64,000 bases of DNA from an uncultured Crocinitomix sp. (GCA_937136425.1 CAKZON010000040.1:1-64000), one strand, 5' to 3'; counted from the first letter of the stretch, positions 43,862 through 55,897 are shown. Program-made: numbers and translations. The notes: generated from the letters alone by a model not told the origin.

Positions 43862-45031
43862 ATGTCAAAAAATAGAATAGAAAGAACTTATTGTAAAGAA
43901 AGTATTTATGGTGAGGCTAAGACACGAAAGCATATTATTTTATTGGACGGGACATGGAATGATGAAACTGGAATTAATTCTGATGGTAATGTTACTAATA
44001 TTGTACACCTAAAACGCATTCTAAAAAACGATAGTGAAAACCAAATTGTTACTTATCACCGTGGAATTGGAAATGACAATGAGAATAGTCGCATTAAAAA
44101 GGTGTTAAAAGGTGCTACCGGTGCAGATATTGACGATATAATTACAAATGCATACGCCAAATTTGTTCAAAATTGGCATAAAGGAGATCGAATTTATATT
44201 TTCGGTTTTAGCCGTGGTGCTGCAACAGCAAGACTTTTGGCATCTAAAATTCAGAAAGAAGGTATTCCTTATAAAATTAAAATATCATTTAGATCAAGCG
44301 TAAACAAGGAAACTAATGTGGTAGAGCAACGTGTCGAAAAATATCAGGTGGCTAGCAAGAAACCTCCTTTCAGCACCGATATTGAATTTTTAGGTGTTTG
44401 GGATACTGTTGCTGCTTTAGGAGCGTGGACTAATTTCATGAAATTTTTAGGAATTAATAAAACCAATATTTTTCAAGATTTTCATATTGCTCCAAACATT
44501 AAAAAAGCCGTGCATCTAGTCGCCATTGACGAAACTCGCTCAATTTTCTCGGCGGCTCTTATGAATTATAAGGAAAACGTCACTCATGAAGTATGGTTTC
44601 CTGGCGTTCATTCTGATATTGGTGGAAGTTATCCTGTGGATGAAATTGCACAGGTGTCTTTATACTATATGTTGAAAAATATGGAAGAATGGGCAGAAGA
44701 AAGAGAACTGGAACCTTTTTTGATTAACAAGGACATGCGCGCTATTTACACCAGTGAAAAAGTAGATCGAGCACATTTTCACTTTCACGGAGAAGGTTTG
44801 GGTAAATCAATGCGGAAAATAGGCGTGCAGGTTAATGGCAAAATTGATCCAAGTAGAGCGCCTAAATTCCACAAATTATTGAAGGATATTATTGATAATA
44901 ACTCTGCTTATGCCGTATTTACAATTGATGGCGATAATGACGCCAAAGAACAAAAGAAAACTGCTAATTTTGACTATAAACCGTTTCATATAGAAGAACT
45001 GCCAAATGATGAATCGGAATATTACTATTAA
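43862..45031 (+). CDS. DUF2235 alpha/beta-hydrolase
   Basis: 389 residues. N-terminal HIILLDGTWNDETG is the family signature; the nucleophile elbow GFSRGAA (G-x-S-x-G) and the later WFPGVHSDIGGSYP provide the Ser, Asp and His catalytic elements. DUF2235 includes Tle1-type phospholipases delivered by type VI secretion, but many members are cytosolic with unknown substrates; no toxin or immunity partner is evident here. It starts 32 bp after the last his gene on the same strand and may be read through from it. Confidence 0.85.
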   Translation: MSKNRIERTYCKESIYGEAKTRKHIILLDGTWNDETGINSDGNVTNIVHLKRILKNDSENQIVTYHRGIGNDNENSRIKKVLKGATGADIDDIITNAYAKFVQNWHKGDRIYIFGFSRGAATARLLASKIQKEGIPYKIKISFRSSVNKETNVVEQRVEKYQVASKKPPFSTDIEFLGVWDTVAALGAWTNFMKFLGINKTNIFQDFHIAPNIKKAVHLVAIDETRSIFSAALMNYKENVTHEVWFPGVHSDIGGSYPVDEIAQVSLYYMLKNMEEWAEERELEPFLINKDMRAIYTSEKVDRAHFHFHGEGLGKSMRKIGVQVNGKIDPSRAPKFHKLLKDIIDNNSAYAVFTIDGDNDAKEQKKTANFDYKPFHIEELPNDESEYYY

Positions 45032-45225: not shown

Positions 45226-45693
45226 GTGATTGATAAACTAAATAAAATAACTTTTTTCGGATTTGCGCTTTGTGTTGTTATGCCAATAATGGAAGTGAAG
45301 TATCGCTATATCCATGATTACAGTAGTGAACCAAATGATAGTAGGGGGCTAATGAACATTTGGAATGCTTTGACAGAGCATTGGGATGGTATAAATTTTC
45401 TGTTTGGTTTTCATCCAGAGGTGATGGTTGTTCCGATAGCAGTAATTCTCCAAGGCATTATCCTTTTAAAGGATAAAAAACGATTTCAAAAAGCAGGTAA
45501 TGTACTTGATAGTTATCAAACCTATATGTTTTTATTAATTGCCATTGCTATTAACCTATTCCTAATTGATGATGCTTATAATAGTCACCGAACTAAGTTT
45601 TATTTTTGGTTTGGTGGGTACATTTTTATTGGTTTAATTCTAATGAATGGCATCATTAAAAGAGTGTGGCATATAAAAGCAAAAAAGCTATAG
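45226..45693 (+). CDS. Small membrane protein, paralogue 1
   Basis: 155 residues from GTG 45226, four predicted helices (KITFFGFALCVVMPI; VVPIAVILQGIILL; YMFLLIAIAINLFLI; FWFGGYIFIGLILM). No known family. Its twin follows 135 bp later with matching motifs (GFHPEVMVVPI / GFHKELLIIPI; LQGIILLKDKKRFQKAG / LQGIILLKNKKTFQKMG). The promoter -7 element lies right before the start codon. Confidence 0.7.
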   Translation: MIDKLNKITFFGFALCVVMPIMEVKYRYIHDYSSEPNDSRGLMNIWNALTEHWDGINFLFGFHPEVMVVPIAVILQGIILLKDKKRFQKAGNVLDSYQTYMFLLIAIAINLFLIDDAYNSHRTKFYFWFGGYIFIGLILMNGIIKRVWHIKAKKL

Positions 45694-45812
45694 CAATTCA
45701 TGTTAACCTCTTTGTTCTTTTTGTAGCTAACGCACAACAATTCCTATCACTTAAAGTTTGTTAAGAACTTACGTTAAACATTTACTAATGGTAATCTATT
45801 CCAGTACTTTCT

Positions 45813-45820
45813 TATTTTTG
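45813..45820 (+). promoter_or_regulatory. -7 element almost touching the start codon (copy 2)
   Basis: TATTTTTG matches TAnnTTTG and ends 8 nt before GTG 45829, the same geometry as in copy 1. Confidence 0.5.
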
Positions 45821-45828
45821 CCAGCGTT

Positions 45829-46317
45829 GTGATCCAAAAATTAAACATAATCACTTTCTGGGCATTTCTTGCAAGCATAGTATTGCCAGTGTTTGTTTTA
45901 GAATACCATTATATGCATGGTGAGGCTAAGCCATTTTTTGATGTTTCTCTTTTTCCAACAAACCATCTTTATGAAAGTTGGTATGGTCACAAGTTTCTAT
46001 CCGGATTTCATAAAGAATTGCTAATTATTCCAATATTCGTTGCCCTGCAAGGAATCATACTCCTGAAAAATAAAAAAACATTTCAAAAAATGGGGCAAGC
46101 CTTAGACCATTATAGAACCTACATTGTCATGTTGGTTGGAGTTGTTTTAACCTTTTTTATTTTGAGTCAGACCTATCCAATACATCACGTTACTTATTAT
46201 TTTCAAATAGGTGCTTATCTTTGTGTAGGTATAATTATTACAAATATTGTCTTAAGACTTTATCATAATCAAAGCATAAAAATAAGTAGCTCAACAACTA
46301 ATAAAATCAAAAAATGA
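45829..46317 (+). CDS. Small membrane protein, paralogue 2
   Basis: 162 residues from GTG 45829, same four-helix plan as the gene before it and clear sequence similarity through the second and third helices. Function unknown. The stop overlaps the start of the next lipoprotein gene (ATGA), so those two are coupled. Confidence 0.7.
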   Translation: MIQKLNIITFWAFLASIVLPVFVLEYHYMHGEAKPFFDVSLFPTNHLYESWYGHKFLSGFHKELLIIPIFVALQGIILLKNKKTFQKMGQALDHYRTYIVMLVGVVLTFFILSQTYPIHHVTYYFQIGAYLCVGIIITNIVLRLYHNQSIKISSSTTNKIKK

Positions 46318-48131: not shown

Positions 48132-49007
48132 ATGAAGCAGGGCATAATTACACTTTTTATTATAAGCACTTTTGTTGCGTGTACCGCTACCGAAAATGAT
48201 GTAAACCAGGAAGAAGAAGATGTGCTAATGGTAGGCGACTATGAGTTTGTTGAGAATTTGACGAATGATTATGGCCTTATTTGGTCGTGGGAAGGTGAGT
48301 TTACCACTGGAGAACAAGAGAAAGTAAAAGATTGGATTACGGAGGTTAGCGAAGCAACAAATAATACCTTAGGTCAATATGGCTTTGATGTTTATGTTAA
48401 TATTATTCGTTCTAATTCTAAAAATCGACCTGTACCATTTGGTTTTGCACGAAGACGTGAAGGTAAGAATCAAGTTCATTTATACGTCAACCCCACAGCA
48501 ACGAAAGATGAGCTTTTAAGAGATTGGACAGCACAGCATGAGTTTAGTCATTTATCAATTCCTTTTTTAGGGAGTAAAAACAAGTGGTTTTCAGAAGGTT
48601 TTGCTACTTTTTTAAGTCGACAAACTATGATGGATCAAGGGCTTTATACGCAAGTTGAATTTGATTCGTTATATCATAGTAAAATAACCGAAGCAAAGGC
48701 TTATTACAATTCAAGTACAAAAACCTTTATAGAAGTGTCAGATAGTTTGTTAGATAATAATGTATATTCTCATATGTATTGGGGGAGTACTACTTTTCTT
48801 TTCACAATTGATAAACGTTTACGAAAAGAACGTGATATACGATTTGTAGACATAATGAAAGAGTATCAACCACTATTCAGAGACAGTGATAAAAGCATTA
48901 AAGACGTCATTCGATCATTTGATAAGGTTATTGGAGAGGATTGGTGCTGGGAGTTGATGGCAGTTTATAGAAATAATCCTTCTAATGTTATTATGGAGGA
49001 TTATTAA
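48132..49007 (+). CDS. Metallopeptidase-like lipoprotein
   Basis: 291 residues; lipoprotein signal MKQGIITLFIISTFVAC (Cys 17). The centre has the zinc-peptidase pattern QHEFSHLSIPFLGSKNKWFS followed by EGFATFL, i.e. HExxH with a downstream Glu as in gluzincins (MA clan, M1/M61-like). The rest is not similar to a family I know. The catalytic set appears complete, so it may be an active envelope protease. Its stop overlaps the start of the kelch gene (TAATG). Confidence 0.75.
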   Translation: MKQGIITLFIISTFVACTATENDVNQEEEDVLMVGDYEFVENLTNDYGLIWSWEGEFTTGEQEKVKDWITEVSEATNNTLGQYGFDVYVNIIRSNSKNRPVPFGFARRREGKNQVHLYVNPTATKDELLRDWTAQHEFSHLSIPFLGSKNKWFSEGFATFLSRQTMMDQGLYTQVEFDSLYHSKITEAKAYYNSSTKTFIEVSDSLLDNNVYSHMYWGSTTFLFTIDKRLRKERDIRFVDIMKEYQPLFRDSDKSIKDVIRSFDKVIGEDWCWELMAVYRNNPSNVIMEDY

Positions 49008-50188
49008 TGATATTTATAAGATACTTGATAGCAATAAGCTTATTAAGCTTTTCTTTAGATGGCGTGAGTCAATCTATTGATTGGGAGTGGAAAGCCGAAG
49101 TTGATTTTCCTGATTTGGGTCGTGATGATGCAATTGCATTTTCAATTGGTGATACAATTTATTTTGGGTCTGGTAACCATGGGGGCTTTGGTCAAAGCAA
49201 TGTTTTTTATAAATTCAGTACATCAACTAATGCTTGGGCGTTAATTACTCCATTTCCTGGAGTTGCACGTCAATATTCGATTGCTGCTACCATTGGTAAT
49301 AAAGGGTATTTATGTGGAGGAATTGATCTTTTTAATAATCCTTTAAATGATTTGTGGGAGTACAACCCTGCAAGCGATACTTGGACTGAATTAACAGAAT
49401 TACCTGCGGCACCTCGTTGGCAGGCAGCAAGTTTTGTTTTAAATAATGAGCTATATGTTGGTACTGGGCGTGGTTGGGATGAAATTTATAAAGATTTTTG
49501 GGCTTATAATATTCAGCAAGCTGAATGGAGGCAAGTAAGTGATTTGCCTAAATTGCCTTGTTATGAAACGGTGTCTTTTGAGTTGTTTGATAATGGTTAT
49601 TTAGGGTTGGGCAGAGATTGCACAGGTGTTTATTTGAGTGATTTATGGAGATATGATCCGTTGGAGGACGACTGGCTTCAAGAAGCAGACTTTCCATCAG
49701 ATGCTAGATATTATGCTAAAGCAGAAGCCTATAATGGATTTGGCATTGTAGGATCAGGGCAAAATGCAAGTGGACAAATGTTAAATGATTTTTGGGCATT
49801 TGATCCTATTCAAAAATCTTGGACAGAAATTCCTATTCCGCAAATGTCTAAACGTAAAGGTTTAGCTTCTGCGGCAATTCCTTTTCATGGTGTTTATTTT
49901 ATTGCGGGTATTGATGAGTCTTTTAACCGGAGGAATGAAATGTACCAATTAAAGGTGGTTGCAAGTGCTTCGTCAAATTTTCGTTTGGTTTATAATCAAC
50001 CAAATGCAATAATATATCTCACTGAAATAGCAATGCCCACCAATGTTCAAGTATTTGATATAAATGGCCGAATGGTCTATGAAAGCAAGGCGATAGATTC
50101 TTATTTATACATTGATATAAACAGTTGGACAAAAGGACTTTATTTGGTGCGTGTTAATGATGACGTAAAAAAAATCATCTTGTATTGA
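49007..50188 (+). CDS. Kelch-repeat protein with T9SS sorting domain
   Basis: 393 residues: signal peptide (YLIAISLLSFSLDGVSQS), about six kelch blades (for example ATIGNKGYLCGGIDLFNNPL, LNDLWEYNPASDTWTELTEL, DFWAYNIQQAEWRQVSDL, DLWRYDPLEDDWLQEADF, DFWAFDPIQKSWTEIPIP) forming a beta-propeller, then a type A T9SS domain (VQVFDINGRMVYESKAIDS). Exported by type IX secretion. The overlap with the metallopeptidase gene couples the two. Confidence 0.85.
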   Translation: MIFIRYLIAISLLSFSLDGVSQSIDWEWKAEVDFPDLGRDDAIAFSIGDTIYFGSGNHGGFGQSNVFYKFSTSTNAWALITPFPGVARQYSIAATIGNKGYLCGGIDLFNNPLNDLWEYNPASDTWTELTELPAAPRWQAASFVLNNELYVGTGRGWDEIYKDFWAYNIQQAEWRQVSDLPKLPCYETVSFELFDNGYLGLGRDCTGVYLSDLWRYDPLEDDWLQEADFPSDARYYAKAEAYNGFGIVGSGQNASGQMLNDFWAFDPIQKSWTEIPIPQMSKRKGLASAAIPFHGVYFIAGIDESFNRRNEMYQLKVVASASSNFRLVYNQPNAIIYLTEIAMPTNVQVFDINGRMVYESKAIDSYLYIDINSWTKGLYLVRVNDDVKKIILY

Positions 50189-50249: not shown

Positions 50250-50969
50250 ATGAAAGTAATCTTTTTTATAGCCTTATTCATTTCCACTTTTACTTATGGT
50301 CAAAGTGTTAATTATAATGATTCACTTATTACCTTAAAAGGTAAAGTGTTAGATACCAATTATAGTGTTGGATTTTACAATGTGGTGGTATTAAATAAAA
50401 CCGTAGGTAAAGGCATTTTTGGTGATTATACAGGTAATTTTAGCATTACCGTAAAAAAAACAGATACAATTGGTATCTCTGTTCGTGGATACCAAACCAT
50501 TTACCTGTCATTTGCGGATAGTGCTTATCATAAAGTATATAATAACAAGTTTTATATTGAGGAATTATCAATCACTACTGAGGAGGTTGTCGTACGTCCA
50601 TTAAAAACTTTAGAAGAATTAAAAGAAGAGCGGGCAAACATTGCAAAACGTGAAGTTGCAACTGTTACAGTTGTAAATGCTATTGAGAGCCCTATAACGG
50701 CTTTATATCTAGCGTTTAGTAAACGGGAAAAAACAAAACGCTACGTTGCTGAAATGGAATACAAAGATCAGCAATATGATGTAGTAAAAGAAATATTACG
50801 TGTATATGTTCATAATGATATTTTTGAATTGTCAGAAGATGATTTCGACGAGTTTATTCGTTTTTTAAATTTGAATATCGAGTTTCTTAAGTCAGCTTCA
50901 GATTATGATTTGGTGACTTATATCAAAGCCAAATTTGAACATTTCCAAAAAATTAAAGAAGGTTTCTAA
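50250..50969 (+). CDS. Secreted carboxypeptidase-like-domain protein
   Basis: 239 residues; signal peptide MKVIFFIALFISTFTYGQ, then a carboxypeptidase-regulatory/transthyretin-like beta-sandwich (ITLKGKVLDTNYSVGFYNVV...GNFSITVKKTDTIGISV) and a charged helical C-terminal region (about 130-239). Families of this shape are common in Bacteroidota and their function is unknown. It is 72 bp upstream of the four-gene KPVIYLY array but lacks the array's C-terminal domain. Confidence 0.75.
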   Translation: MKVIFFIALFISTFTYGQSVNYNDSLITLKGKVLDTNYSVGFYNVVVLNKTVGKGIFGDYTGNFSITVKKTDTIGISVRGYQTIYLSFADSAYHKVYNNKFYIEELSITTEEVVVRPLKTLEELKEERANIAKREVATVTVVNAIESPITALYLAFSKREKTKRYVAEMEYKDQQYDVVKEILRVYVHNDIFELSEDDFDEFIRFLNLNIEFLKSASDYDLVTYIKAKFEHFQKIKEGF

Positions 50970-51041: not shown

Positions 51042-52013
51042 ATGAAACATCTATTATTAGGCTTATATATTGGCATTGCAGGAATTATACATGCGCATAG
51101 TTCTGAGATGTTAGGGCTGCCAGGTTGGACGATAGTTTCAGAAATAAAGAATGATTCTATTCCAGAAGGGGATGTTATTCTTGAAGGTAATGTGAAAATG
51201 TTTTCTAGCGCTTTGCCATTGTCAGATGTTAGGATAGGAACAAGTTCAAGTGAAACATTAACAGATAGTCTAGGGGATTTCACCTTGAATGCAAAAGCAA
51301 GTGATTCGCTATTTTTTTGTTACCGATCAGGATGGTCTGAAATTTATGAGATCAATCCTAATTTTAAAAGTCAGCATATAATTACAATTGATGTTTACTT
51401 ATTTCAGGAGCGTCAAATCATGAAAAAACCAATTATCTATCTTTATAATGACACTCCTATAAATGCGCAAATAAAAATTACTCCAAAAGGTGAGTTTACT
51501 TTTACTTATCCTAAATATGAAGATGGTTGGAATGTTTCTGTTCAGCCTAAAGGGGGAATTGTGGACTTAAAATCAAATAAGGAATTTCCTTACTTATTTT
51601 GGGAGGCAGAAACCGAAGGTTTATTCTTTGACTTTACTGAAAAACAAATGGAAGGATGGGTTATTAAAACAGACACTTGTATTTCTTTTTTAGAAAATCA
51701 ATTGACGGCTTTAGGATTAAATGAGGTTGAGCAAACGGATTTTATTACGTTTTGGGCCCCAATACTTTCAAAAGATGAATATGCAGTAATTCAGTTCTTG
51801 TTAGATGATGTCTACCAAAATAATATCGCTGAAATTGAAATTTCACCAAAGCCTGATGCCATTCGCAGAGTCTATTTACTTACGGCACCGTTAAATAATG
51901 CTTTTATTGGAATAAACATGGTGCCCCAAACCTTTGCACCCTTTCAACGAAATGGCTTTACAGTGTTAGAATGGGGCGGAACTGAATTGAATTTTTTGGA
52001 CCTTAAATTTTAA
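51042..52013 (+). CDS. KPVIYLY-array protein 1
   Basis: 323 residues from ATG 51042 (MKHLLLGLYIGIAGIIHAHS, signal peptide). A transthyretin-like domain (about 45-130; VILEGNVKMFSSALPLSDVR, TDSLGDFTLNAKASDSLFF) leads to the array domain: KKPIIYLYN, GEFTFTYPKYEDGWNV, FPYLFWE, TDFITFWAP, RRVYLL and GFTVLEWGG. First of four tandem paralogues, tightly spaced on one strand. KPVIYLY proteins occur in several phyla by my memory, without a known function. Confidence 0.85.
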   Translation: MKHLLLGLYIGIAGIIHAHSSEMLGLPGWTIVSEIKNDSIPEGDVILEGNVKMFSSALPLSDVRIGTSSSETLTDSLGDFTLNAKASDSLFFCYRSGWSEIYEINPNFKSQHIITIDVYLFQERQIMKKPIIYLYNDTPINAQIKITPKGEFTFTYPKYEDGWNVSVQPKGGIVDLKSNKEFPYLFWEAETEGLFFDFTEKQMEGWVIKTDTCISFLENQLTALGLNEVEQTDFITFWAPILSKDEYAVIQFLLDDVYQNNIAEIEISPKPDAIRRVYLLTAPLNNAFIGINMVPQTFAPFQRNGFTVLEWGGTELNFLDLKF

Positions 52014-52015
52014 AG

Positions 52016-52987
52016 ATGAAAGAACTCGTTACCATATTATTGCTCATGACAATTGGTAGTTTAACTGCCAAGTCTGAGTTAAGGTTAGTGGTGCCATACA
52101 CCGTGATTAGTGATTCTGTATCAGCCCAGGTTCCTGAAGGACATTGTAAAGTAAGAGGAAAAATAATTTTGGCTGATTCAAGTGTTGTTATAAAAGGATT
52201 TGTTGCGAATTATGGCATGACACGAAAAGCCAAAATTAAAGAGGGGGAATTTGATCTGTTAATTCCAGATTCTGATAGCATTGTGTTTTTCTATTCTCCA
52301 AATTATGGTGAAATAATTATGTCTCCTTATGATTTTAAAAGTGGGCATGAAGTGACGGTATATTTTTATCCCAGAAGTCCTCAAATTATGATGGAGGTTG
52401 ACAAGCCGGTCATTTATTGTTATTCTGAACAACCATTAACGGCGACAATAAATTTGAACTTCAATGGTGATTTCACGTTTTCTTATCCTGTTTATAATGA
52501 GGGGTGGAAAGTAGACGTTAATGCGTCAGGAAATTTAAAAACAGAGGAAGGTAATTCTTATCCTTATCTGTTTTGGGAGGGTAAAACATCATCTTTGAGT
52601 TTTCAGGAGAATGAAAATGGCGCTTTTGAAGGCTTTTTTGTTCAAACTGACACCATTGTAAGCTTTTTTGAAGATCAACTGACATCACTGAGTTTAAACC
52701 GTCAAGAACAAGCAGACTTTATAACTTATTGGGCGCCTCGTATCATTGAAAACGAACATGTGTTCATTCAATTTCTGGTTGATGAATCTTATGCTGAAAA
52801 CATTGCTGAAATTAATATAACTCCTAAGCCTGATCATTTACGCCGTGTTTATATGTTATTTACACCAGCATCAGAATCTCACAATTTAGAGATTAGTTCG
52901 CAGGTTTTTAAGCCAATTAAACGTACAGGTTTTGCGGTTATAGAATGGGGTGGTAGTGAAATGAACATTAATACAAATCAACTATGA
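52016..52987 (+). CDS. KPVIYLY-array protein 2
   Basis: 323 residues with signal peptide (MKELVTILLLMTIGSLTAKS). Same domain order as protein 1: a transthyretin-like part (CKVRGKIILADSSVVIKG; FDLLIPDSDSIVFFYS), then DKPVIYCYS, GDFTFSYPVYNEGWKV, YPYLFWEG, ADFITYWAP, RRVYMLF, GFAVIEWGG. It starts 2 bp after protein 1. The Tyr-Leu-Tyr of the motif is Tyr-Cys-Tyr here. Confidence 0.85.
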   Translation: MKELVTILLLMTIGSLTAKSELRLVVPYTVISDSVSAQVPEGHCKVRGKIILADSSVVIKGFVANYGMTRKAKIKEGEFDLLIPDSDSIVFFYSPNYGEIIMSPYDFKSGHEVTVYFYPRSPQIMMEVDKPVIYCYSEQPLTATINLNFNGDFTFSYPVYNEGWKVDVNASGNLKTEEGNSYPYLFWEGKTSSLSFQENENGAFEGFFVQTDTIVSFFEDQLTSLSLNRQEQADFITYWAPRIIENEHVFIQFLVDESYAENIAEINITPKPDHLRRVYMLFTPASESHNLEISSQVFKPIKRTGFAVIEWGGSEMNINTNQL

Positions 52988-53964
52988 GAGCAATTTTAAT
53001 CATTTTACTATTTGGCGCGTCAATTGGCGCTAGTGCTATAGACTCTTATAGAGCATTGCCAAATTATTACATAATAAAGTCAGACACATATACGAATGAC
53101 CTTTTAACAGGACAAGTAAGGGTTAAAGGACATGTATTAGACTATAAAGGCGAAGCGTTAGCAGGAACATTAGTGAGCACAATGGATGAAGAAACATCTG
53201 CCTTGACTGATGCTAACGGAGCTTTTGATATGATTGTACACGATTCTGATACCTCTATTTTTGCATTTAAAGAAGCCTATACCGAAATTGCAATAGCACG
53301 GTATGACTTTAGAGCTGGTCACACCGTTGAAATAGAATTTAGATTGCCTTTAAAAATTGAACAAGAACCAAAAACGCCGGTTGTATCCTTTAAACCAGTC
53401 ATTTATTTGTATTCTACCACCACGCTTAATGTTTCTTTGGCTTTAGATTATTTGGGTGAGTTAACTTTTACTTACCCTGAATATAATGAGGGGTGGAATG
53501 TTACAGTTGGTCCAAATGGAATTCAAGACGCTAAAAGAACTTATCCTTACTTGTTTTGGGAAGGTGAGATGGATCATTTAACATACGAAAGAAATGGATC
53601 AGAATTAGAAGGGCAATTGGTGGCTACGGACACTTTAGTTGAGTTTTTAGAAAAGCAATTGAGCGATATTGGTTTAAATAGAACTGAACAAGCTGATTTT
53701 ATTACGTTTTGGGCTCCAAAAATGTCCGTTGGCAACTATGTGTTTGTCCAATTTTTATTGGATGATTTATATACATCAAAAATTGCCGAACTAACAATGA
53801 GCCCTGAGCCAGAATCTTTAAAAAGGGTATACTTATTGTACACTACTTATCAAGAATTTCCGGACATTGATTATGCTCCGCAACAATTTGAACCTTTTGA
53901 TAGGAAAGGCTTTACCTTGATTGAATGGGGTGGGTCAGAATTAAAAACTTTAATCACTTTATAA
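52984..53964 (+). CDS. KPVIYLY-array protein 3
   Basis: 326 residues with signal peptide (MRAILIILLFGASIGASA). Has the standard transthyretin-like domain (VRVKGHVLDYKGEALAGTLV; TDANGAFDMIVHDSDTSIF), then FKPVIYLYS, GELTFTYPEYNEGWNV, YPYLFWEGE, ADFITFWAP, KRVYLLY, GFTLIEWGG. It overlaps protein 2 by 4 bp (ATGA). Its linker before KPVIYLY is longest in the array (KIEQEPKTPVVSF). Confidence 0.85.
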   Translation: MRAILIILLFGASIGASAIDSYRALPNYYIIKSDTYTNDLLTGQVRVKGHVLDYKGEALAGTLVSTMDEETSALTDANGAFDMIVHDSDTSIFAFKEAYTEIAIARYDFRAGHTVEIEFRLPLKIEQEPKTPVVSFKPVIYLYSTTTLNVSLALDYLGELTFTYPEYNEGWNVTVGPNGIQDAKRTYPYLFWEGEMDHLTYERNGSELEGQLVATDTLVEFLEKQLSDIGLNRTEQADFITFWAPKMSVGNYVFVQFLLDDLYTSKIAELTMSPEPESLKRVYLLYTTYQEFPDIDYAPQQFEPFDRKGFTLIEWGGSELKTLITL

Positions 53965-53966
53965 CT

Positions 53967-54956
53967 ATGAAATTAATAACTACAATACTTTTAAGCCTAG
54001 TTGTAATATCTAGCCTGTTTGCAGAAACTGAGCCCCCTGGATATTATAAGGTTATTTCAGATAAATATTCTGCCGACATTCCTGCTGGAACGTGTATTAT
54101 TCAAGGGAGGGTTTATGAGGACGGCACCAAAGTAGGAATTCCCGGCGCTGTAGTTGGAGAAACTAGCCGAACACGCTACATACTTACGGATAATGACGGA
54201 AAGTTTAAGTTGAAATTAAGCTCAAAAGACACCAGTTTCTATTGTTTTCATCAAGATTATGAAGAGGTCGTATGTTGGAATTATGATTTTAAAAGTCAGC
54301 ACATTATTACGGTTAATTTTTTTACAAAAAAACGTCTGATTATGGATGATAATTATCCCGTTGCTGAAAAACCGGTAATCTATCTTTATTCTGATGAAGA
54401 AGTTGATGCTACGATTAGCCTACAACCAAAAGGTGAATTTACTTTTACTTATCCAGCATATGAAGATGGTTGGAGTGTAAACGTGTCTTCAAATGGATTA
54501 AAAGTAAATGAGCAACAATATCCTTATCTGTTTTGGGAAGGTGAATGTGAGAATTTGAGCTTTAATAAGAATGGCGGACAATTCGCTGGTTATTTTATAA
54601 ATACAGATTCTACCATTCAATTTTTAGAAACAACATTGGAAGCTATTGGATTTAACAGTACCGAAAGAACCGATTTTATAACTTATTGGGGACCAAGATT
54701 AACAGCTCATAGCTATGCGTCTGTACAATTTTTAGTAGGAGAGCAGTATGATCAGAATGTTGCTTCCATTGATGTGTCTCCCCAACCTGATTCTCAGTTA
54801 CGGGTATACATGTTATTTCAGGGGACTGAATTTTCTTCAAGTCCGCACCGTTTAGTGGCGACAGAGTTTCCAAAGTTTAACCGTAAAGGATTTACTTTGG
54901 TAGAATGGGGTGGTAGTGAATTTAAAGCTGTTAAGCATACTATGGCAGCTCTTTAA
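53967..54956 (+). CDS. KPVIYLY-array protein 4
   Basis: 329 residues from ATG 53967, which opens a signal peptide (MKLITTILLSLVVISSLFAE); the frame is open 14 codons further, inside gene 3. It follows gene 3 by 2 bp. Domain order is unchanged: VYEDGTKVGIPGAVVGETSR, then EKPVIYLYS, GEFTFTYPAYEDGWSV, YPYLFWEGE, TDFITYWGP, LRVYMLF, GFTLVEWGG. Last gene of the array; no terminator is evident after it. Confidence 0.85.
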   Translation: MKLITTILLSLVVISSLFAETEPPGYYKVISDKYSADIPAGTCIIQGRVYEDGTKVGIPGAVVGETSRTRYILTDNDGKFKLKLSSKDTSFYCFHQDYEEVVCWNYDFKSQHIITVNFFTKKRLIMDDNYPVAEKPVIYLYSDEEVDATISLQPKGEFTFTYPAYEDGWSVNVSSNGLKVNEQQYPYLFWEGECENLSFNKNGGQFAGYFINTDSTIQFLETTLEAIGFNSTERTDFITYWGPRLTAHSYASVQFLVGEQYDQNVASIDVSPQPDSQLRVYMLFQGTEFSSSPHRLVATEFPKFNRKGFTLVEWGGSEFKAVKHTMAAL

Positions 54957-55126: not shown

Positions 55127-55897
55127 ATGTATTATTTAATTCAGTCCAATATCTATTCCGATCCGGAGCACTTTAAGGTATTTGAGGTGTTGGAGGATTT
55201 AGGGCTTGAATATGAAACGATTGAATTAAGTTCAGACGCAACATCAGTTGAAATTAAAAGTGATAGAGAGGATGTGTTCGTTTATGGCTCCGTAAAATTA
55301 GCACGCTTAAGTAAAGCTAATACACATTGGAATCCTGGATCATTCTATGGTGGAAATCACAATTTTGAAATCATATCAAAACACTATAAATCACATTTGC
55401 TAAATGCAAATGCCGAAGTTTTTGAATTTGGACAAAGCATTAATTGGAAAGAAGGAGAGACAAAATTCATTAAACCATATCAAGATGCAAAAGTGTTTAC
55501 GGGTAAGGTGTTTACTCAATTAAAGTGGAATGATTTTGTGAATGAAGCATTGACTCATCCTAAAACCGAACGGTTAAATAGTAAAACTCTTGTTCAGGCT
55601 TCTGTTCCTCAAAAGCTTTACAAGGAGGCAAGGTTGTGGGTAGTTGGGCAACAAATTGTAGGTTCAGTTTATTACCGCTTTCATGGTGATGTGCCTTTTC
55701 ATACCAAGGTAGATGATGAAGGCATCTTGTTTGCAAATGAAATGATTGAAATTTTTAACGTGGCTGATGCATTTGTGATGGATATTGGCTTAACAAATGA
55801 TGGGTGGAAGATTGTAGAAGTAAACTGTATAAATAGTGCTGGTTTTTACAACCTTAATGTACGCACCTTGTTTCGCGCATTAGAAGCTTATTTTTGA
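55127..55897 (+). CDS. ATP-grasp protein (DUF4343-like)
   Basis: 256 residues, cytosolic. The C-terminal half has ATP-grasp features: YKEARLWVVGQQIVGSVYYR, then DAFVMDIGLTNDGWKIVEVN with the Mg-binding Glu/Asn (EVN). The N-terminus (MYYLIQSNIYSDPEHFKVFE) and the middle match DUF4343-type proteins, which are thought to ligate amino acids to acceptors, though the substrates are unknown. Monocistronic, convergent with the next gene. Confidence 0.8.
   Translation: MYYLIQSNIYSDPEHFKVFEVLEDLGLEYETIELSSDATSVEIKSDREDVFVYGSVKLARLSKANTHWNPGSFYGGNHNFEIISKHYKSHLLNANAEVFEFGQSINWKEGETKFIKPYQDAKVFTGKVFTQLKWNDFVNEALTHPKTERLNSKTLVQASVPQKLYKEARLWVVGQQIVGSVYYRFHGDVPFHTKVDDEGILFANEMIEIFNVADAFVMDIGLTNDGWKIVEVNCINSAGFYNLNVRTLFRALEAYF

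Follow-up and report, generated by a model that had tools for sequence, protein, structure and literature searches.

A tandem array of four exported proteins in an uncultured Crocinitomix and the candidate new C-terminal domain that they share with proteins of several bacterial phyla

In a marine Bacteroidota (an uncultured Crocinitomix sp.), four adjacent genes each encode an exported protein with the same C-terminal domain of about 190 residues, here called KP, which raises the question of what this domain is and why its gene stands in four side-by-side versions. The locus was brought forward by an earlier note on a 64,000-nucleotide stretch of DNA, the window of this study, and its account of four tandem genes, their lengths and their close spacing (+2, -4 and +2 bp) was reproduced in full (Table 1). 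A signal-peptide-like stretch opens each of the four proteins, followed by a transthyretin (TTR)-like domain and the KP domain, and all of the motifs quoted in the note (KP-IY-Y and others) are present in all four. Its "near absence of variation" in the core was an overstatement, as the KP domains of the paralogues are 45-49% identical; the core is nevertheless more constrained than the flanks, with 24-36% identity in the N-domain when the first 20 residues are left out, and 69 columns are invariant among the four proteins. No further KP copy was found in the 6.1-Mb source genome, and scans of the array for promoters and terminators gave signals no more than chance.

Table 1. Features of the window at and around the array, in positions counted from its first nucleotide
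Feature	Position	Strand	Length (aa)	Description
DUF2235-like gene	43862-45031			product resembles DUF2235-type alpha/beta hydrolases, judged by eye
Two paralogous membrane proteins	45226-46317			after the DUF2235-like gene
Kelch protein gene	49007-50188			product with a T9SS sorting domain
Upstream BamP-like gene	50250-50969	+	239	directly 5' of the array; periplasmic protein gene
Array gene 1	51042-52013	+	323	signal peptide, TTR-like domain, KP domain from ~51417
Array gene 2	52016-52987	+	323	KP domain from ~52397
Array gene 3	52984-53964	+	326	4-bp overlap with gene 2 (ATGA); KP domain from ~53377
Array gene 4	53967-54956	+	329	KP domain 54357-54932; starting instead at the in-frame ATG at 53925 would make it overlap gene 3
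ATP-grasp gene	55127-55897			just 3' of the array; R2K-clade ATP-grasp protein (PF14243, 75 bits)

In regard to the identity of KP, no Pfam or NCBIfam match above the curated cut-offs was obtained for this region with the window proteins, a 144-member alignment or ten distant homologues, and nothing significant was found in PHROGs. Likewise, PADLOC-DB gave zero matches, placing the domain outside the anti-phage defence families of that collection, and profile searches of PDB sequences returned TTR/SusC or chance matches only, none of them for KP. Sub-threshold matches to PF25297 (DUF7878) lie on one diagonal, with 21 bits in L091 and 14.5 bits in L099 at a cut-off of 25; literature searches found no paper on DUF7878 and no relevant paper by KP motif strings. 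The opinion of the earlier note that the domain belongs to no characterised family was thus borne out by all of these profile checks. Judged by sequence comparison, KP appears to be an undescribed domain family outside every catalogue searched, the newness being claimed for the family and not for its mechanism.

Structure prediction, which the earlier note had suggested for the monomers, gave confident models, with an AlphaFold2 pLDDT of 94 for the mature gene 4 protein and of 96.2 (pTM 0.91) for KP alone, modelled from a 141-sequence alignment. The KP model is beta-rich, with a neighbouring pair of helices, at residues 83-97 and 101-116, inserted between its strands. Compared on its own with the PDB, it reached a best Foldseek E of 0.59 and a best VIA Z of 2.8 over 115 residues, where Z of 7-8 is the tool's stated typical value for models without a clear match, and this suggests that the domain may have a new fold. 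The whole two-domain model matches a Terrestrivirus protein (BFVD A0A3G4ZNZ8) with an E of 9e-14 and 20% identity across 271 columns, a hint that the family may also have reached eukaryotic hosts or viruses that infect them.

As for the part ahead of KP, CarboxypepD_reg profiles (PF13620/PF13715) score 18-24 bits in genes 3 and 4, below the Pfam gathering cut-off of 32.2-32.3, and give no match in genes 1 and 2, while in the homologue L095 the CarboxypepD_reg domain passes the Pfam cut-off with 43.9 bits. In the gene 4 model, this N-domain of about 90 residues superimposes on carboxypeptidase D and SusC N-terminal domains, with a Z of 11.9 and an rmsd of 1.6 A over 82 residues for 5aq0_B and a Z of 11.0 for 9hfj. 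The domain is accordingly modelled with the transthyretin-like fold that the earlier note had proposed, and a fold search with the whole gene 4 protein gave PDB matches confined to this part.

The scan of a genome collection gave 305 stretches encoding a KP domain, of which 72 loci, from Bacteroidota, Clostridia, Patescibacteria and one Pseudobdellovibrionaceae genome, were kept. KP occurs in at least four phyla, namely Bacteroidota, Patescibacteria, Bacillota and Bdellovibrionota. It was found in 20 of 59 genomes of close relatives, 24 of 395 Bacteroidota, 49 of 287 genomes in the Patescibacteria sample, 5 of 299 in the Clostridia sample and 9 of 144 in the Bdellovibrio-group sample, these samples being small and the locus-derived groups named only by the loci leading to them. 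Arrays of two to eight KP genes are a property of Crocinitomicaceae and their relatives; elsewhere there is mostly one copy per genome. A phage origin was considered and rejected, as PHROGs gave no match and the sole match in a phage collection (L090, MT835506.1) looks bacterial: this entry is labelled bacteriophage, and its KP protein lies among carboxylase genes in what looks like a bacterial chromosome. None of 67 KP candidates on viral contigs was confirmed. Spread by plasmids was likewise rejected, with a single match, on Ruminococcus albus plasmid pRUMAL02.

Conservation was counted over 261 near-complete sequences, with residues numbered according to the KP domain model. The domain has about eleven residues, polar or aromatic, that show almost no variation: P33, W39 and E103 are present in all 261 sequences, R149, W111 and W184 each in 260, R176 in 259 and K5 in 256, while position 183 holds E in 254 sequences and Asp in 6, and position 61 E in 239 and Asp in 20. 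No His, Cys or Ser is invariant in the domain. In the most distant members, which belong to the Bdellovibrio group and stand outside the 261 count, inspection by eye indicated that K5, W39, D/E at 61, D106, W111, R149 and E183-W184 are kept, that E103 is replaced in one, and that R176 seems lost. Such a pattern would be expected of a shared site; a buried structural network is also compatible with it, and, against a ligand site, the conserved residues may constitute a buried salt-bridge and aromatic core only.

The position of KP within proteins is constant. The domain is C-terminal in 263 of 263 distinct proteins, with at most 18 residues after it (median 6), and the parts that precede it differ: SLH domains in L047, L060 and L077, a dockerin in L066 (Ruminococcus), a BspA-type leucine-rich repeat (LRR) region in the protein of pRUMAL02, the CarboxypepD_reg domain of L095 and, judged by eye, a plug-like and TTR segment in L104, L106 and L107 or a membrane helix alone in L062, L071, L113 and L116. 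In L098, a second KP domain stands before the terminal one. Since KP always lies at the free end behind differing anchors, it is best read as the working part, although the always-C-terminal rule could also be a folding constraint. Because proteins that are unrelated apart from this C-terminal part carry it in four or more phyla, KP probably does one shared job outside the cytoplasm. The most likely reading, which we put forward tentatively, is that KP is a terminal ligand-binding or ligand-processing module of envelope proteins. It is drawn from the C-terminal rule, the SLH, dockerin and LRR neighbours, the near-invariant residues and the association with exported Memo/PGA_cap proteins seen in Patescibacteria, and, for the arrays, from purifying selection, positional orthology and tight co-directional organization.

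In Patescibacteria, 32 of 47 KP genes adjoin, in line with it, a gene of the Memo cluster, coding for Memo alone or Memo-PGA_cap (L058, L063, L067, L072, L074, L075 and 26 more loci between L125 and L164), with gaps of mostly a few bp or slight overlaps and in both gene orders. These partners, Memo (PF01875) or a fusion of Memo with PGA_cap (PF09587), are exported proteins. Within the Patescibacteria sample, Memo occurs in 31 of the 49 genomes with KP and in 38 of the 238 without it (Fisher p 7e-11, uncorrected for ancestry). No Memo gene was seen beside Bacteroidota arrays in the flanks examined, and the link is limited to Patescibacteria, which counts against the terminal-module reading. PGA_cap proteins are annotated with capsule synthesis. 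Human MEMO1 is reported to bind iron and copper (PMC11081632, PMC9477392). A role in redox chemistry or with an envelope polymer is on these grounds a reasonable guess and no more, yet the pairing offers the first functional handle on KP in Patescibacteria.

Related to this, KP could be an enzyme whose substrate is a glycan or peptide polymer of the envelope, with E103 and E61 or E183 as acid residues. We regard this as unlikely, yet as a serious rival that partly overlaps with the reading of KP as a terminal module. E103 has no exception among the 261 sequences, an acidic residue is found at position 61 in 259 and at position 183 in 260, and polymer chemistry would fit both the Memo/PGA_cap pairing and the dockerin fusion in Ruminococcus, where cellulosomes hold both enzymes and binding modules. 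However, the KP model matches no enzyme fold, invariant His, Cys and Ser are all absent, and tandem paralogues sharing an identical signature would be unusual within one pathway.

In the arrays, KP genes are co-directional (43 of 43 arrays on one strand), with a median gap of 2 bp and with 97 of the 109 gaps falling in the range from -60 to +30 bp. Trees were built separately for both domains, and, although many of their deeper forks are weak, in both each window gene groups with the same-position gene of L009, L010, L011 or L017. Orthologues of gene 1 were found in L009, L010 and L011 (100/100 support in the core tree), with gene 1 of L012-L014 as sister; those of gene 2 are the second genes of L009, L010 and L011, and those of gene 3 the third gene of L009, the third and fourth of L010 and the first of L017. 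First array genes cluster across genera in both trees, and last genes do so most clearly in the N-domain tree, while duplications of a lineage's own are seen in L019, L022 and L013 (g3/g4). Comparison with the L009 orthologues gave dN/dS values of 0.05-0.09 for the KP domain and 0.06-0.14 for the N-domain, which are rough since some dS exceed 1 and which indicate purifying selection in all four paralogues. Positional orthology together with strong purifying selection argues that the paralogues are specialised and maintained as distinct genes that have not undergone diversification, and are not interchangeable copies. A second group of arrays, in Fluviicola and relatives, lies in a different chromosomal setting (L025, L033, L036, L038, L041, L043, L048, L050, L051, L056 and L069); most come after an alanyl-tRNA synthetase-like gene, and in most a conserved exported protein of 160-200 aa (cluster c6) comes next.

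The earlier note had gone further, seeing in the four proteins possible subunits of one surface assembly. In a hetero-oligomeric complex of this kind, moved to the periplasm, KP would be the common interface and the TTR domains would contact differing partners. The positional orthology, in which first and last genes are retained across genera, purifying selection on each paralogue separately, the tight co-directional genes and the greater divergence of the N-domains all agree with this, and the part of the claim concerning distinct members fares well, as they keep their array place between species. On the other hand, KP is mostly single-copy outside Crocinitomicaceae and relatives, so that KP cannot work in general as part of a multi-paralogue assembly, and array size varies from two to eight, with the lineage-own duplications mentioned above. 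Of two outcomes that the note had counted against its own idea, membership of the domain in a characterised family did not emerge, whereas genes found singly are the rule outside this group. We consider the hetero-oligomer improbable, though it too is a serious rival with partial overlap. Alternatively, the arrays could be inhibitor- or immunity-like sets against secreted enzymes or toxins of neighbours, as tandem paralogues with a constant fold, varied N-domains and an inferred periplasmic or surface location might suggest; strong purifying selection and fixed positions instead of turnover, the lack of PADLOC matches and of any recognised toxin gene beside the arrays make this highly improbable.

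The earlier note had also tentatively placed the array proteins at the surface, which the data do not support. No T9SS sorting domain (Por_Secre_tail or other) was detected in them with Pfam and NCBIfam, whereas the kelch protein upstream does have one; a lipobox is absent by pattern test in 147 of 152 array proteins, the window signal peptides being without Cys, and no membrane helix beyond the signal peptide was noted. With no T9SS tail, nearly no lipobox and no extra helix, a soluble periplasmic protein is the simplest reading here, and these features make a periplasmic location of the window proteins likelier than a surface one.

Directly upstream of the array lies the BamP-like gene. The NCBIfam BamP model matches 11 of 11 orthologues of this gene (best E 9e-9), and the window copy, matched end to end with 22 bits where the equivalog cut-off of NF053692 is 230, is predicted to be a divergent BamP homologue. 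Its orthologues are 64-95% identical, much more conserved than the array, and the gene stands directly 5' of the array in ten related loci. The BamP of Flavobacterium johnsoniae, which has several homologues, partners with BamA in the periplasm (PMC12611786). The array could then be an accessory of outer-membrane protein assembly, with BamP-like and TTR-KP proteins acting at the BAM machinery, but we hold this to be very unlikely: the bit scores are far under the BamP cut-off, KP is also present in phyla without an outer membrane, and no BamP-like gene lies in the flanks examined of L018, L019, L022 and of most arrays from L023 to L057, which is therefore not a general part of KP arrays.

Returning to the terminal-module reading, KP would be an extracytoplasmic beta-rich module with a two-helix insertion, forming the functional end of envelope proteins, whether tethered or free. 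Where it is placed would depend on the varying region ahead of it: a periplasmic TTR spacer here, and SLH, dockerin, LRR, lipid or a membrane helix elsewhere. We infer a pocket in which K5, W39, E61, E103, D106, W111, R149, R176, E183 and W184 would bind, or bind and process, a single conserved ligand, for which a polymer of the envelope or the extracellular space is the most likely candidate. The KP gene would have been multiplied in Crocinitomicaceae into an operon-like array whose members hold fixed and specialised roles and would act together in the periplasm. Read more broadly, KP would be a new fold, present in one or more giant viruses as well as in several bacterial phyla, and would be the mark of an envelope system so far undescribed, in which a terminal module that binds or processes one conserved ligand is paired with exported Memo/PGA_cap proteins in Patescibacteria and multiplied into specialised periplasmic sets in Crocinitomicaceae; in this full form, the proposal is rather doubtful. 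That about eleven near-invariant residues persist both in Bacteroidota and in the reduced genomes of Patescibacteria, in a domain that Pfam, NCBIfam and the PDB lack, points to a common function outside the cytoplasm that annotation misses, and the Crocinitomicaceae arrays provide a genetic test of joint paralogue function.

Several known systems bear comparison with these proteins. In relation to the F. johnsoniae BAM complex, the upstream gene matches the BamP model over its whole length, though far below the equivalog level, while the array proteins have only the TTR fold in common with BamP. Memo and PGA_cap proteins are conserved neighbours of KP in Patescibacteria and are not homologous to it. 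In the SLH- and dockerin-anchored surface modules of Clostridia, KP sits behind the anchor as binding and catalytic modules do, yet it has no match among known families of either kind. Finally, the N-domain resembles the carboxypeptidase regulatory-like/transthyretin-like domains, including the SusC N-terminal extension, in its fold and in weak, sub-cut-off sequence matches, and differs from them in that the TTR-like part of the array proteins would serve as a spacer ahead of a new C-terminal domain.
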